Of a DNA stretch of 21,573 bases, positions 3,032-21,424 are shown in pieces (the stretch's first letter is position 1; each line of letters starts with the position of its first letter). The translations under genes and the position numbers were made by a program. The notes beneath the pieces were generated by a model. The model did not search any database and was not told where the DNA came from. It saw only the letters and a program-made list of their open reading frames with translations. The DNA is from a virus, in IMG/VR virus record IMGVR_UViG_3300009703_000125, positions 1-21,573 of that record; one strand, 5' to 3'.

Positions 3032-3264
3032 CGGTGCTCTATCGATGGCCGGGGTACCGGATCGTGAGCGGTGATGACGGTGTGGTCCTTGAGGAGACCG
3101 CAGGACTTGGGACGCCCCAGCCATGGCGCCGGGTCAAGGGCATCGCGCACGATGTGGCCGTGACGCTGCTTGCGTCGATGGCCAATGACCTCCCGATGAC
3201 ACCACCGCAACAGCAGGCGCCTCAGCACGTACACTCCCGGGACCAACCCGAGGAGGACCCTTGA
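3028..3264 (+). CDS. 78-residue hypothetical phage protein
   Basis: The chosen start is GTG 3028, which overlaps the previous stop as GTGA and follows a GGGAGG ribosome site; GTG 3034 is an alternative. The same frame is open back to 2929, but that part overlaps the zinc-ribbon gene in another frame. Residues 1-30 look like beta strands (TVLYRWPGYRIVSGDDGVVLEET), then one helix (RVKGIAHDVAVTLLASMAND), then a Gln/Pro-rich acidic tail ending EEDP. It is translationally coupled on both sides, being the last replication-operon gene before the lipoprotein. No function can be given. Confidence 0.5.
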   Translation: MTVLYRWPGYRIVSGDDGVVLEETAGLGTPQPWRRVKGIAHDVAVTLLASMANDLPMTPPQQQAPQHVHSRDQPEEDP

Positions 3265-3884
3265 TCGCCCTGCTGCTTGTCGCTTGTATGCCCCAGACCC
3301 CGGAGACCACCATCGAGGACACGGGCACAGCACCCGCCGTCACCGACACCGCAACCGAGACGGACACAGGGACCACGTCCACGGACACGGTCGACACCGG
3401 CTACCAGGCCGAGACCGGGGACACATCCACGGCCCCAACGGACACCGCTGTCACGGACACGCAGGACACGCAGGACACGCAGGACACGCAGGACACGGAG
3501 GCGCCCGAGGACACCGCGCCGACGGACACTGCACCCCCGCCGTTTGAGTGCACCAGCGAGTGGGGGAATGTGACTTTCAGCGACGGGGAGACGGAGCAGT
3601 CCAAGAGCTACACCGGGAGCTCTTCCTATCTGGCCGCTTACCCTCTCCAGGGATCTGGGGACCTGTGCTCCATGAGCAGCGACCGCCCCTGGCTCACATG
3701 CTGGGTCTCCACCCAAGGCGATTGCGACTCATCAGCCGTGATTGAACTTCCCGCCGAAGACGCAATGTCCGGCGACACGCTCCACTTCTGTCTGTCCATC
3801 GACTGGGACCCGGGCTCAGACCGTGGAGTCTGCACGCTGGATACGTCGAAGCAGTCCCTTACTTGGCAGGTCATCGCGTCATGA
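3261..3884 (+). CDS. Predicted lipoprotein with Asp-Thr repeat linker
   Basis: A 207-residue protein starting at TTG 3261 (TTGA overlaps the previous stop; GAGGAGG about six bases upstream). MIALLLVAC is a minimal lipoprotein signal with lipobox LVAC and Cys9 as the acylated residue; it lacks the usual basic n-region, so the signal is short. Residues 17-92 are almost only Asp, Thr, Glu, Ala, Gly and Pro, including a run of DTQ triplets. Residues 95-207 form a distinct domain with six cysteines (97, 136, 147, 155, 177, 191), enough for three disulfides, consistent with export. Asp-Thr-rich tethers occur in surface lipoproteins of myxobacteria and relatives. It may be a lysogenic-conversion or superinfection-exclusion protein; this is a guess. 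Confidence 0.6.
   Translation: MIALLLVACMPQTPETTIEDTGTAPAVTDTATETDTGTTSTDTVDTGYQAETGDTSTAPTDTAVTDTQDTQDTQDTQDTEAPEDTAPTDTAPPPFECTSEWGNVTFSDGETEQSKSYTGSSSYLAAYPLQGSGDLCSMSSDRPWLTCWVSTQGDCDSSAVIELPAEDAMSGDTLHFCLSIDWDPGSDRGVCTLDTSKQSLTWQVIAS
3456..3500 (+). repeat. Tandem 9-bp repeat in the lipoprotein linker
   Basis: The unit GACACGCAG occurs four times in a row at 3456, 3465, 3474 and 3483, followed by one variant at 3492. It encodes DTQ triplets. The period is a multiple of three, so the array can grow or shrink without breaking the frame; it is a likely slippage site that would vary the linker length. Confidence 0.8.
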
Positions 3885-6170: not shown

Positions 6171-6236
6171 GGTAGAATGGCGGGGAGCCGGTTGCAGCCG
6201 ACCCACCCGCCCGCACAAAGCCTGAAAGGAGGCCCC

Positions 6237-6413
6237 ATGCGCAACGACGACGCTACCACGACCGAGATCTGGAGGCCCATTCCGGGCTGGGAGGGCACGT
6301 ACGAGGTCAGCGACCACGGGTACAACAACAGGCTCTCGAATCTGAGATGGGCGACGCACATCGAGAACATGGCTGACCGGGAGCGCCACAAGGCGGAACG
6401 AAGCCAGGTGTAG
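6237..6413 (+). CDS. Collapsed NUMOD4-HNH homing endonuclease remnant
   Basis: A 58-residue frame with a strong ribosome site (GAAAGGAGG) before ATG 6237. EIWRPIPGWEGTYEVSDHG is the start of a NUMOD4 domain. It runs straight into YNNRLSNLRWATHIENMADR, the DNRxSNLRWxTxxeN end of HNH homing endonucleases. In full-length members roughly 80-100 residues separate these, holding the VHRLVA.aFi segment and the HNH catalytic histidines, and all of that is absent here. The deletion kept the frame, so a short protein is still made, but it cannot be a nuclease. It sits between TerL and portal, a common site for phage free-standing homing endonucleases. Confidence 0.75.
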   Translation: MRNDDATTTEIWRPIPGWEGTYEVSDHGYNNRLSNLRWATHIENMADRERHKAERSQV

Positions 6414-17275: not shown

Positions 17276-18132
17276 TGGGCAATACGACGGTCAGGTATTA
17301 CCCCGATCCGGATGGCTCGCTTGAGGAGGTCGATTTCGGCTCCGATCACATCTCCAGCGTGATCGAGATGCCCGTACGAGACGTCCGGGACTCCCACAGC
17401 CTCGGGGGCGCCTTCCACAGGAGCGTGCTGGGCGGGGGCCTGAAGGTCCGCCTGGTCTGTGAGCGGTTCTCTGGCCTGACCACGGCCGGCAAGTCGCTGG
17501 CCCGCAACCTGGCCAGCCTCGAGGCGCATCTGCACCGGGGTGGACTGGTCGCCTTCAGCGCAGACCGGGACAATGCCTGGTTTGGGGTCATGGAGGGGAT
17601 CCTGCTGCCCCTAAGGGGGGACACGAGCCTGACCACATTTGGGGGCAACCTGCTCTCGGTCTTCACGGCAACAGGGACGGCCGCAGCACTGGCCGCTGGC
17701 GATGAGCTCTTCCTGGAGTCCTTCAATCCGACCATGCACAGGGAACAACTGTTGGTGACGTCCGAGAGCAGCGGGGTCATCACCCTGGACACGAGCGACG
17801 GGAGCGCCGTCCGGTACGACTACCAGGACGAGGGGACAGCCATCGTCCGAGAGCGAAACTTCTACCCGGCGCTCCGGCTTCCAGAGGACCAGGTCGGGCG
17901 CCAGACGCTCATCACGGACCACCGGCACACCTGGACCTGGGACATCACGCTTGAGCTCGACTACCTGGCGATCGAGAGCCTGATTCCAGCCGCTGACGTG
18001 ATGGGCGGGACAACGATGGCTCAGGGGACCCTGAGCATCGAGTCCGCGCTCAAGCAGTACCGGTCAGGGAATGTGACCCGCTTGGGCTTCGACCCGACTG
18101 CGGGCAGCTCTCCTGGTGGGACCTTCAACTGA
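17272..18132 (+). CDS. Distal tail protein-like (Dit position)
   Basis: A 286-residue protein starting ATGATG; ATG 17272 overlaps the previous stop, and ATG 17275 is an alternative. It is beta-rich (NTTVRYYPDPDGSLEEVDFG, SLGGAFHRSVLGGGLKVRLVCERFSG, GDELFLESFN, LLVTSESSGVITLDTSDGS) with FYPALRLPEDQVG and a C-terminal TWTWDITLELDYLAIESL. Position immediately after the tape measure and before a baseplate-hub-like gene is that of Dit, which joins tube to baseplate. No specific Dit motif is recognised, so the call rests on gene order. Confidence 0.5.
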   Translation: MMGNTTVRYYPDPDGSLEEVDFGSDHISSVIEMPVRDVRDSHSLGGAFHRSVLGGGLKVRLVCERFSGLTTAGKSLARNLASLEAHLHRGGLVAFSADRDNAWFGVMEGILLPLRGDTSLTTFGGNLLSVFTATGTAAALAAGDELFLESFNPTMHREQLLVTSESSGVITLDTSDGSAVRYDYQDEGTAIVRERNFYPALRLPEDQVGRQTLITDHRHTWTWDITLELDYLAIESLIPAADVMGGTTMAQGTLSIESALKQYRSGNVTRLGFDPTAGSSPGGTFN

Positions 18133-19703
18133 TGGGCTGGTCCTCGGACTTCCTGGACGCCCTGCAGGACCGTACCCACATCCCGCGGTTCTACTTGGAG
18201 GTCTCCAAGGAGCCTGGAAGCCCCGGCGCGTCTGGGGTCACGATCTACAGCCACCAGAGCACCCAGGACAGCGACCCGGACTACGCGATCGACCGAAGTA
18301 GCGTGCGGGTCAGCTCCGGCGTCGTCTCGACCCTGACGTGGTCTCGGTCCTTTGGGGGGATGAGCATCGGTATCCATGGTGGATCTGATGCAGCCACCAA
18401 CGTGCTCCAGTCCGTGGTCAAGGGCTGTCTTGTGCGCCTGTTCGTCGGGTTCCAGGGATGGGACTATGGGGACTTCGAGCCCGTGTTTACGGGCCAGGTG
18501 ACGGGCCTGCGGGGCACCCCTACCCGCGGGTACACCCTGACGTGCTGGGACATCGTGAGGGCGCTGGGCTCGAGGTGGACCACCACCGCCGGGAATGCGG
18601 CGCTGTTCTTCAACCTGAGGGAGCTTGCGGCCACGACCGTGAAGACCGGGACTCCATACAGCATCGGGGCCACGACGCTGGATGTCACCGACGCATCAGC
18701 ATTCGAGCGCGAGGACGCTGGTAACTACATCGTCCAGGTTCGGGGGGACGCGGGGTCGGACTTCTATGTGCGGGCCACGGGCCTGACCGGTGCTCAGCTC
18801 ACGGGCTGCACCGCAGGCCACTACGGGACCACCGACGACGACGCAGCGGCCGGCAACGCGGTCACGCACATGGCCCTGCTTCAAGACCACCCGATCGACA
18901 TCGTAAAGAAACTGCTGCTCAGCACTGGCACAGCAGGGGCGGCACATGCGACGTTCGACAAGTACCCTGCCGGATGGAGTTGGGCCGTTCCCTTGGACTG
19001 GGTAGACCTGGCCGACATAGACGACGTTGCGAGCCGCTACCAGGTGAACACGACCTGGGACCTGGACGTGGTAGTCACCGAGGCCCAGACGGACCCATAT
19101 AGTTGGCTCGCGTCGGTCCTTGGGCCCTGCGGGGTCTGGCTTGTGCAGCGACAGGGCGCGATCAGCCTCAGGTACGCCCAGAACCCGTTCCTGACCAGCC
19201 CAGGGACCATCCCGCCGGACTTCAGCATCACGGACATGGAGATAGAGCAGGTACTGGACTGGCAGGCCTGGGACGGCTCCCGGCAGGTCGAGTATCAAAG
19301 CCTGGTGGTGAAGGACGGCAATGTCTCCCCGTACTCGCTTACCAGCAGCGAAGCGATCACCACGCTGCCCAGCGACAAGACCTACACCGTGACCCTGAAC
19401 CACCTCTGGGAGACCTCGGGAGCGAACAATCAGACCGGGGTTGCTGACGTGGACCGACGTACCGAGGTGTCTGCCCATCGAGTCCCTGAGCGGGTCTCCC
19501 TGGTATTGATCGGACTTGCATTCGCGGGCCTGTGTGAGGGCGACATCGGGCGCCTGACCACCGCCATGATTCCGTCGAGGGACCCGGAGGGCACCCAGTC
19601 GCGCACCTGTGTTGTGCTGTCCTGTGAGCCGGACTGGCTCAATGGAACGGTGCGTGTTGACCTGGAGATGTCGCCGGAGTGGGCCACCGAGTTCAAGACC
19701 TGA
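18132..19703 (+). CDS. Baseplate hub/tail-associated protein
   Basis: A 523-residue protein; ATG 18132 shares a base with the previous stop. Residues 1-150 contain PVFTGQVTGLRGTPTRGYTLTCWDIVRALGSRW, with the F.G.V..l......y.l...D.........W pattern of baseplate hub (gp27/Tal-like) domains. A middle insertion (about 165-250) is Thr/Ala-rich. The C-terminal part is beta-rich, with VLGPCGVWLVQRQGAISLRYAQN and a DIGRLTTAMIPSRD strand. No lysozyme or peptidase motif is seen. Its stop and the stop of the convergent sulfotransferase gene are adjacent (TGATCA). Confidence 0.6.
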   Translation: MGWSSDFLDALQDRTHIPRFYLEVSKEPGSPGASGVTIYSHQSTQDSDPDYAIDRSSVRVSSGVVSTLTWSRSFGGMSIGIHGGSDAATNVLQSVVKGCLVRLFVGFQGWDYGDFEPVFTGQVTGLRGTPTRGYTLTCWDIVRALGSRWTTTAGNAALFFNLRELAATTVKTGTPYSIGATTLDVTDASAFEREDAGNYIVQVRGDAGSDFYVRATGLTGAQLTGCTAGHYGTTDDDAAAGNAVTHMALLQDHPIDIVKKLLLSTGTAGAAHATFDKYPAGWSWAVPLDWVDLADIDDVASRYQVNTTWDLDVVVTEAQTDPYSWLASVLGPCGVWLVQRQGAISLRYAQNPFLTSPGTIPPDFSITDMEIEQVLDWQAWDGSRQVEYQSLVVKDGNVSPYSLTSSEAITTLPSDKTYTVTLNHLWETSGANNQTGVADVDRRTEVSAHRVPERVSLVLIGLAFAGLCEGDIGRLTTAMIPSRDPEGTQSRTCVVLSCEPDWLNGTVRVDLEMSPEWATEFKT

Positions 19704-20378
19704 TCACCACGAATCCGGCCAGTAGGTCCGCCAGTGCTCGCCATCCGCGGACCGGACCCAGCCGATCATCTCCTGGTCCCACTCACAGGCGATGCTCTTG
19801 GGGCTCCCGTTGGTGCGTCCGTCCCACTCCCACAGCATCCTGTGGTCCAGGGGCAGGCCGTGCCGCCGGAACAGGGACACCACACCAGGCCGGCTGTCGT
19901 CGGTGGCGTCGACCAAGGCGTGGGCCCGGAGCTCACCGCGAACCGTGAAGGTGTAGCGGTAGAACCATGACGCGAATCCGCCACCCTCAGCAGCCCATGT
20001 CGCGAACGTGTGTCCCTCGTGCTGCGGGACGATGGGGATGGGCTTGAGGATGTCGTGAGCCTCGAGCGGGTGCGTGGACAGGTAGACCCATCGCCTGAAA
20101 CTGATCGGGGCTGGGGTCCCGTCGGTAAAGCGGGTCAGCCCATCCACAGGCACGCCGGATCTGTAAAAGTGGCGGTAATAGGACTCGAGCCACCTAAGTG
20201 GGTGGCGGATGGTCCCCCAAACCAGGCGGGTGTCTCGCTGCTCTGTGGGGGTGTGCCGCACCCCGTCGTGTTGACGCTCCTGGCGCCTACCAAGTCCTGA
20301 CGTCTCGAAGTAGCGCATCCAGAACGACCCGCCTGACTTCGGGAGGTGCAGGTAGGTCCAGCCGTCTCCGACAATCAT
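19704..20378 (-). CDS. Sulfotransferase-family protein, phage accessory gene
   Basis: A 224-residue protein with ATG at 20378. Residues 11-19 (HLPKSGGSF) are the 5'-phosphosulfate loop of PAPS-dependent sulfotransferases with Lys14, and residues 55-68 (GTIRHPLRWLESYY) are the 3'-phosphate motif with Arg58 and Ser66. It is short but both cofactor-binding motifs are intact. A candidate catalytic region is around HDGVRHTP (38-44). It reads against all neighbouring structural genes, has its own promoter motif, and touches the hub gene stop, so it is an inserted accessory gene (moron). It may sulfate a host glycan or lipid, or a phage protein or glycan; no substrate can be inferred. Confidence 0.78.
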   Translation of the reverse strand: MIVGDGWTYLHLPKSGGSFWMRYFETSGLGRRQERQHDGVRHTPTEQRDTRLVWGTIRHPLRWLESYYRHFYRSGVPVDGLTRFTDGTPAPISFRRWVYLSTHPLEAHDILKPIPIVPQHEGHTFATWAAEGGGFASWFYRYTFTVRGELRAHALVDATDDSRPGVVSLFRRHGLPLDHRMLWEWDGRTNGSPKSIACEWDQEMIGWVRSADGEHWRTYWPDSW

Positions 20379-20386
20379 TCCGTCAT

Positions 20387-20406
20387 CGTGTCAGAAATGA
20401 TACGGT
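20387..20406. promoter_or_regulatory. Palindromic promoter/operator, copy 4, between divergent genes
   Basis: CGTGTC (20387-20392), six bases, GATACGGT (20399-20406). Rightward it gives TGA-TACGGT as extended -10, ATG at 20427 with a GGAGG ribosome site. Leftward the same element reads CCGTATC-N5-TGACACGAT with the sulfotransferase ATG seven bases on, the geometry seen at the portal, although the -10 here (CACGAT) is weaker. A single symmetric element could thus serve both genes. Confidence 0.6.
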
Positions 20407-20426
20407 AGGGCCATTGGAGGCCCAAC

Positions 20427-20768
20427 ATGGCCGAGGACTACAGCTCACAAGCAGCATTCCCGTTTGCGCAGCGCTTTGCCCTGAGCGGAACCGCGGACAA
20501 GGTGACTGAGATCAAGTTGCCCAAGGACGGGCGCAAGCTGACTGTCATCTTCGAGACCAACGCGGGCAAGTTCACGCACACCGGCACCGACGATACGGCG
20601 ATCGGTACTGAGTTCTTCACGGTGCCTGCTGACTCCGCATTCGAGGTGGTGTACGGGATGGGCGTCTCGGCCGCGGATCCCCTCTCTGTGTACGTCGGGT
20701 CTGGGACGGCGTCCACAAACGTCTGTGTGCTGCTCGAGGGCAAGGTCGATCTGGAGGACCGCAACTGA
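20427..20768 (+). CDS. Small beta-rich protein, probable virion surface component
   Basis: A 113-residue protein with a TTGGAGG ribosome site eight bases before ATG 20427. It is made of alternating strands (RFALSGTADKVTEIKLPKDGRKLTVIFE, EFFTVPADSAFEVVYGMG, LSVYVGSGTASTNVCVLLEGKV) with no helices, compact and without cysteine clusters. Coupling to the next gene and its own promoter motif place it in a short unit downstream of the tail genes. It could be a decoration protein or a tail-fibre accessory; no family is recognised. Confidence 0.45.
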   Translation: MAEDYSSQAAFPFAQRFALSGTADKVTEIKLPKDGRKLTVIFETNAGKFTHTGTDDTAIGTEFFTVPADSAFEVVYGMGVSAADPLSVYVGSGTASTNVCVLLEGKVDLEDRN

Positions 20769-21424
20769 TGGCCAGGTTCAAGGTCGCGTCGGCTGCAGCG
20801 GCCGGGATGACTACCGTTGACCTTTCGGCCGGGACCGAGGGCAACACAGGAATGAAGGGCGCCGGAACGTCCTTGGGGGGCACGTCGACCCTGCAGGTAG
20901 CCGCAACGCACGGTCTCCCTGACGCCGGACTAGACGCCTACTTCAATTTGACCCAGATCGACGCCAAGCCATCCGGGAAGCACCTGCTTCACGTCAAGCT
21001 TACGGTGGGAACGAAGCCCACCGAGTCATCCAATGGCAACGTGTTCTTGCACGCCTTGGTCGCTCCGAGCGCGGCCCTGTCGGGAACCAATGGCTATTAC
21101 GCCGGCTTCATGCGAACGTCGGGGGGCCTGGACCGCATCGGTTCCGCCAACAGGGTGGGGACCTCGCCTGGCGGGGGCACTCCGAACTTCGCGACGGAAG
21201 ACTTCATCGCCGACTTCTTCATCCAGTTCGACGGGACCACTGCCACCCACTGCACCGGCTATGCCACGGACTCGGCAAACGCTGAGAACTTCGGCAACAC
21301 CGCCAACGATGCCGGCGGCACGTTCACGAACGTCTTTGTCGGGGTCATGCTCAGCCAGGCCAACGCGTCCCCCTCGTCCGTTGTGACATGGGCAGGGGTA
21401 ACTCTTCAGTATGCGTGGGTCTGA
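20768..21424 (+). CDS. Beta-rich Gly/Thr-rich protein, possible tail fibre or spike component
   Basis: A 218-residue protein; ATG 20768 overlaps the previous stop (TGATG). The composition is Gly, Ala, Thr, Ser and Asn rich, with strands HLLHVKLTVGTKPTESSN, GYYAGFMRTSGGLDRIG, FIADFFIQFDGT and a C-terminal VTWAGVTLQYAWV. That composition and the strand spacing recall lectin-like/concanavalin-type jelly-rolls found in phage tail fibres, but no diagnostic motif is present. It lies at the end of the tail block, in the expected place for a receptor-binding protein. Low certainty on function. Confidence 0.45.
   Translation: MARFKVASAAAAGMTTVDLSAGTEGNTGMKGAGTSLGGTSTLQVAATHGLPDAGLDAYFNLTQIDAKPSGKHLLHVKLTVGTKPTESSNGNVFLHALVAPSAALSGTNGYYAGFMRTSGGLDRIGSANRVGTSPGGGTPNFATEDFIADFFIQFDGTTATHCTGYATDSANAENFGNTANDAGGTFTNVFVGVMLSQANASPSSVVTWAGVTLQYAWV

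Follow-up and report, generated by a model that had tools for sequence, protein, structure and literature searches.

The locus considered here raises the question of what is encoded by a reading frame that lies antisense among the tail genes of a phage, and what its product would act on. The window, i.e. the whole stretch of DNA analysed, corresponds to one complete IMG/VR virus record (21,573 bases) with a gene order of the head-tail phage type (terminase large subunit, portal, tail protein, tape-measure protein). The tape-measure gene is followed by a 286-aa gene, a 523-aa gene (18132 to 19703, forward strand), the reverse-strand ORF (19704 to 20378) and two small forward genes, which encode 113 aa (20427 to 20768) and 218 aa (20768 to 21424) according to the ORF list. 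Two other features of the window were noted. A 78-aa ORF between the terminase and portal genes (6177 to 6413, forward strand), in which a NUMOD4 motif (E 3e-6) is joined to the tail end of HNH_3, looks, judged from its sequence, like a homing endonuclease remnant with the middle deleted. A 207-aa lipoprotein-like ORF (3261 to 3884, forward strand) contains a long Thr/Asp-rich repeat (DTQDTQDTQDT) and has no Pfam match.

The reverse-strand ORF starts with ATG and encodes 224 aa; at 0.82, its GC3 is the same as in the neighbouring genes. The preliminary description had called it a sulfotransferase gene reversed against its structural neighbours and with no gap to the hub gene. Both positional statements hold: the structural genes are on the forward strand and the ORF is antisense to them, and its stop codon abuts that of the 523-aa gene, which is a hub-like tail gene by position (TGA directly followed by TCA, 19701 to 19706). 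A second phage contig (L002) carries a homologue that is 83% identical across the last 143 residues, where the contig ends. This homologue is likewise convergent with the counterpart of the 523-aa gene (78% identical to that of the window), with abutting stops and the identical TGATCA. In the comparison with L002, a dN/dS of 0.117 was obtained for the sulfotransferase gene, and values of 0.168 and 0.183 for two tail genes. The ORF is a genuine gene under purifying selection, constrained like the adjoining tail genes. The shared site and junction in L002, the dN/dS of 0.117 and the matching GC3 show that the lineage has kept this gene under selection for a long time, and that it is no recent stray.

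The preliminary description had also proposed to look for the gene at the same locus in related phages, which gave a divided answer. L002 has it there, while distant relatives of the 523-aa gene (approximately 25% identity) on three further contigs are followed by a different gene, encoded on the same strand as that relative (L004, 7623 to 8261; L005, 6463 to 7080; L006, 2556 to 3164). The one in L004, on which alone a family match was run, belongs to PHROG 3000 with weak endolysin similarity. No sulfotransferase was found when these three fragmentary records were searched with the profile of alignment A9. Because another gene is present there, the site after the 523-aa gene is regarded as variable.

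Other details given earlier for the surroundings were not recovered. The gene had been credited with a promoter motif of its own; a scan of 19300 to 20700, limited to the sigma-70 type, gave no consensus promoter (0.2 expected), and the 48-bp divergent spacer between its start and the next forward gene (20379 to 20426) is thus without a sigma-70 consensus. The flanking genes had been referred to as baseplate and receptor-binding-type genes. However, the 523-aa gene and the two small downstream genes have no informative family match in Pfam/PHROG-type searches, and their roles were therefore assigned from their position after the tape-measure gene.

It is highly likely that the ORF encodes a PAPS-dependent sulfotransferase, as the preliminary description had it; PAPS motifs, a homologous family and a fold match obtained with a low-confidence model agree, and together make this identity very probable. 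Both PAPS-binding motifs are present and intact. The 5'-phosphosulfate-binding loop HLPKSGGSF (residues 11 to 19; 20322 to 20348, reverse strand) contains the lysine and the Gly/Ser/Thr-rich turn expected of sulfotransferases (K14, the GG pair and S18), and K14, G16 and G17 are nearly invariant among the phage relatives described below. The 3'-phosphate-binding motif TIRHPLRWLESY (residues 56 to 67; 20178 to 20213, reverse strand), part of the region TIRHPLRWLESYY (residues 56 to 68), contains R58 and S66, likewise nearly invariant. These are eight residues apart and located at a strand-helix junction, as in sulfotransferases (strand 52 to 57 and helix 60 to 73 in the model). In the heparan sulfate 6-O-sulfotransferase 5t03, the first loop aligns with KTGG, and TIRHPLRWLESY aligns with LRDPVSRYLSEW, with R58 and S66 opposite LRDPVSRYLS. 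The window contains a single motif pair spaced in this way, and 500 third-order Markov simulations of it contained none; the pattern was drawn up after the motif had been seen. By analogy with carbohydrate sulfotransferases using a histidine base, H37 (20268 to 20270, reverse strand) is a likely candidate for the catalytic base; the relatives have a histidine in the same or the next column of alignment A9.

No sulfotransferase match was obtained for the window protein with the Pfam, NCBIfam and PHROGs models. This includes Pfam Sulfotransfer_2 (PF03567; nothing above the gathering score) and PHROG 3347 (nothing at E 1, and nothing at E 10 when the record was searched with the family). In tblastn searches, cultured phages yielded nothing beyond a chance match (E 0.6) and plasmids no match, and no relative was found by a protein-based scan of genome contigs, whose reach in bacteria extends to close relatives. 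The sole match of the protein among PDB sequences, a beta-xylosidase, was rejected as chance. Viral contigs scanned with motifs and profiles, in contrast, yielded several divergent phage relatives of 205 to 215 aa with HxPKxGG followed by RHPxxW, most of which came from motif-based patterns. One candidate from the first motif pattern (L008) was discarded because the match was fortuitous and ran antisense to another long ORF. The group defined here as phage RHPxxW sulfotransferases comprises L015, L017, L023, L025, L035 to L039 and gp5.1 of roseophage SIO1.

A profile built from six phage relatives, with the window and L002 left out, retrieved the window ORF with 37.5 bits (E 2.3e-10, residues 2 to 75); the best of 2000 shuffles reached 6.7 bits, and no other ORF of the window was matched. 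With both motifs masked, the ORF scored nothing against the relatives' profile. The significant similarity is therefore confined to the N-terminal, PAPS-binding portion; for the C-terminal two thirds, no sequence other than that of L002 is significantly similar. Four of the phage relatives match PHROG 3347, annotated as 'Galactose-3-O-sulfotransferase', at E 1e-4 to 2e-2 (among them L025 at 1e-4, L023 at 4e-4 and L035 at 8e-3). L035 also resembles Pfam Sulfotransfer_2 weakly (E 1e-3; 19.8 bits, below the 22-bit cut-off). In PDB sequences, the best match of the family profile was 5t03, weak (E 0.65) and with both motifs aligned. Another contig (L011, 2356 to 4416, forward strand) has two different sulfotransferase-like genes close by, the first of which matches Pfam Sulfotransfer_2.

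Structure prediction and a search for the PAPS fold had been proposed earlier as a check. Prediction from the single sequence was useless (pLDDT 35.6). AlphaFold2 with a ten-row alignment gave a model of low confidence (pLDDT 53, pTM 0.53), which is not fully independent of the sulfotransferase assumption, because the alignment consists of sulfotransferase-like proteins. The order of elements in this model is sulfotransferase-like (strand, P-loop, helix, strand, helix, helices and one late strand). In a second look at its PDB matches (VIA), PAPS sulfotransferase-fold proteins made up all 50 of the 50 rows shown, with the heparan 2-O-sulfotransferase 4ndz as best match (Z 9.3, rmsd 3.1, 170 residues). 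Foldseek matched the model to PDB entries with E 0.17 at best and none below E 0.001, and to BFVD entries with E 0.0018 at best; the top BFVD rows were mostly named viral sulfotransferases, and SIO1 gp5.1 was second. Within this low-confidence model, neither a fold lacking the PAPS pocket nor an unrelated P-loop protein, the outcomes named earlier as refuting the assignment, was found.

SIO1 gp5.1 (NP_064743; L040, 4688 to 5254, reverse strand), from a cultured roseophage, was thus first encountered by fold and not by motif. Labelled only 'gp5.1' in its record, it matches the family profile with E 5e-7 (E 2.5e-6 when the window is left out of the profile) and the modelled fold of the window protein with TM 0.54/0.63. 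Like the window protein, it has an R(N/H)PxxWxxSYY motif, and its gene is located beside tail-fibre genes, between these and a gene that we read as terminase-like. Profile and predicted fold place it in the same sulfotransferase family as the window protein. It differs from the latter in being shorter (188 aa), in its phage lineage (Cobavirinae, Siovirus), in having flanking genes on its own strand and in its first motif, PKTATIAI, which lacks the GG and makes its activity less certain. A sulfotransferase is not mentioned in the cobavirus paper searched.

As for the acceptor, no glycan gene was seen on the contig of the window itself, and a glycan is therefore argued from relatives at approximately 15 to 28% identity. 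In L015, L017 and L025, the gene lies within a conserved series of glycosyltransferase genes (in L017, this is read from sequence similarity to L015 and L025). The genes of L039 and L036 overlap one for an FkbM methyltransferase, which adjoins a PhyH-type oxygenase gene (family matches were run on L039), and that of L023 (record G006) is followed by a sugar epimerase gene. Since relatives are found beside glycosyltransferase, epimerase and FkbM methyltransferase genes, glycan sulfation is the best guess, and a change of host surface glycans, which the preliminary description had considered plausible, is favoured by these neighbourhoods, with the glycan as a putative acceptor. We infer an activity, a catalytic residue, a glycan acceptor and a benefit to the phage as follows. 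The product would be a compact PAPS-dependent sulfotransferase of the cytoplasm, and its gene an accessory one ('moron') within the tail region. Host-made PAPS would dock between R58/S66 and the HLPKSGGS loop (K14, S18) for transfer of its sulfate to a sugar hydroxyl, probably with H37 as base. The acceptor would most likely be a glycan of the host envelope or its lipid- or nucleotide-linked precursor, so that infected or lysogenised cells would carry a different surface charge and adsorption by rival phages might be altered. The chances that the enzyme acts on a host surface glycan are put at about even.

A somewhat unlikely alternative is that the enzyme adds sulfate to the virion of the phage itself, i.e. 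to a tail or fibre protein or its glycan, and thereby tunes receptor binding. This would account for the location in the tail region: the gene is situated between tail genes in the window and L002, SIO1 gp5.1 between terminase-like and tail-fibre genes, and the gene of L039 and L036 in the head module, downstream of a portal-type gene. However, the tail region commonly receives accessory genes, whatever their function, an acceptor protein is not known, and the gene is on the strand opposite to the tail genes, so that it is probably not expressed from the tail transcript.

Small molecules or host proteins inside the cell, for instance a metabolite used in signalling or part of a defence system, are unlikely as substrates sulfated in the course of host takeover. 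The fold matches include the small-molecule sulfotransferases SULT1/2, Teg12 and StaL, whose Z values are almost level, which would be consistent with such a substrate, but several relatives' neighbourhoods are glycan-related, and a carbohydrate enzyme ranks first among the solved structures, with the reservation that Z values within 1 of each other count as ties. It is very doubtful that the ORF encodes an inactive relic, or a P-loop protein, unrelated or degenerate, whose sulfotransferase motif arose by chance. The failure of all curated family models and the unmatched C-terminal two thirds would fit this, whereas the correct residues in both motifs, the profile match (E 2e-10), fold matches to sulfotransferases only and purifying selection argue against it.

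The region around the L023 gene (4148 to 7592) comprises, in a row, a ParB-like gene (read from the sequence), a gene matching Pfam TAGT, the TET-associated glycosyltransferase (E 2e-7), the sulfotransferase gene and the epimerase gene. Modification of phage DNA, with sulfate on the sugar or hydroxyl of a hypermodified base as a protection against restriction, was raised as a rival on account of this directly preceding TAGT gene, and the same record contains a cytosine-C5 methylase, but it is far-fetched, as the L023 record has no Tet_JBP hydroxylase match, TAGT is absent from the window, L002 and the other relatives' records searched, and a literature search pairing sulfotransferase with hypermodification returned no paper. 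That the phage's own products, tail or fibre components or a hypermodified DNA base, are sulfated rather than a host surface glycan is rather improbable; if true, it would be a type of self-modification for which no report was found in the literature searched.

With host surface glycan sulfation as the preferred reading, the enzyme can be compared to known systems. Phage sulfotransferases are already known. That they are uncommon in phages, as stated in the preliminary description, is partly right, but a phage family in PHROGs is named as sulfotransferase, several are found in the viral structure library, and published reports exist. PHROG 3347, a family of phage proteins (moron, auxiliary metabolic gene and host takeover), has the same two PAPS motifs and a similar length (219 positions); the family model, which matches four of the relatives, misses the window protein. 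The heparan sulfate 2-O- and 6-O-sulfotransferases (4ndz and 5t03; Pfam Sulfotransfer_2) resemble the low-confidence model with Z values of 9.3 and 7.5, and the motifs of 5t03 align residue for residue with those of the window protein, whereas sequence identity is approximately 9 to 13% and no Pfam match was obtained. In addition, the window protein has a shorter span between the motifs than these enzymes, and a Trp (RHPxxW) instead of the classical Arg/Tyr. Sulfotransfer_3 genes were reported in OM43 phages and in Synechococcus phage S-SRM01, their role in phages being unclear according to the authors (PMC10580990), and sulfotransferases are named among the auxiliary genes in virome papers. 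The OM43-phage and S-SRM01 proteins are, like the window protein, phage-borne PAPS sulfotransferases, but belong to another Pfam family, and were likened by description, not by sequence. The branch represented by the window is mostly missed by curated family models. What is new is the compact RHPxxW group, its fixed convergent place in the lineage of the window and L002, and, through gp5.1, a connection to the cultured phage SIO1, by which the question of what phages sulfate becomes testable in a laboratory phage.
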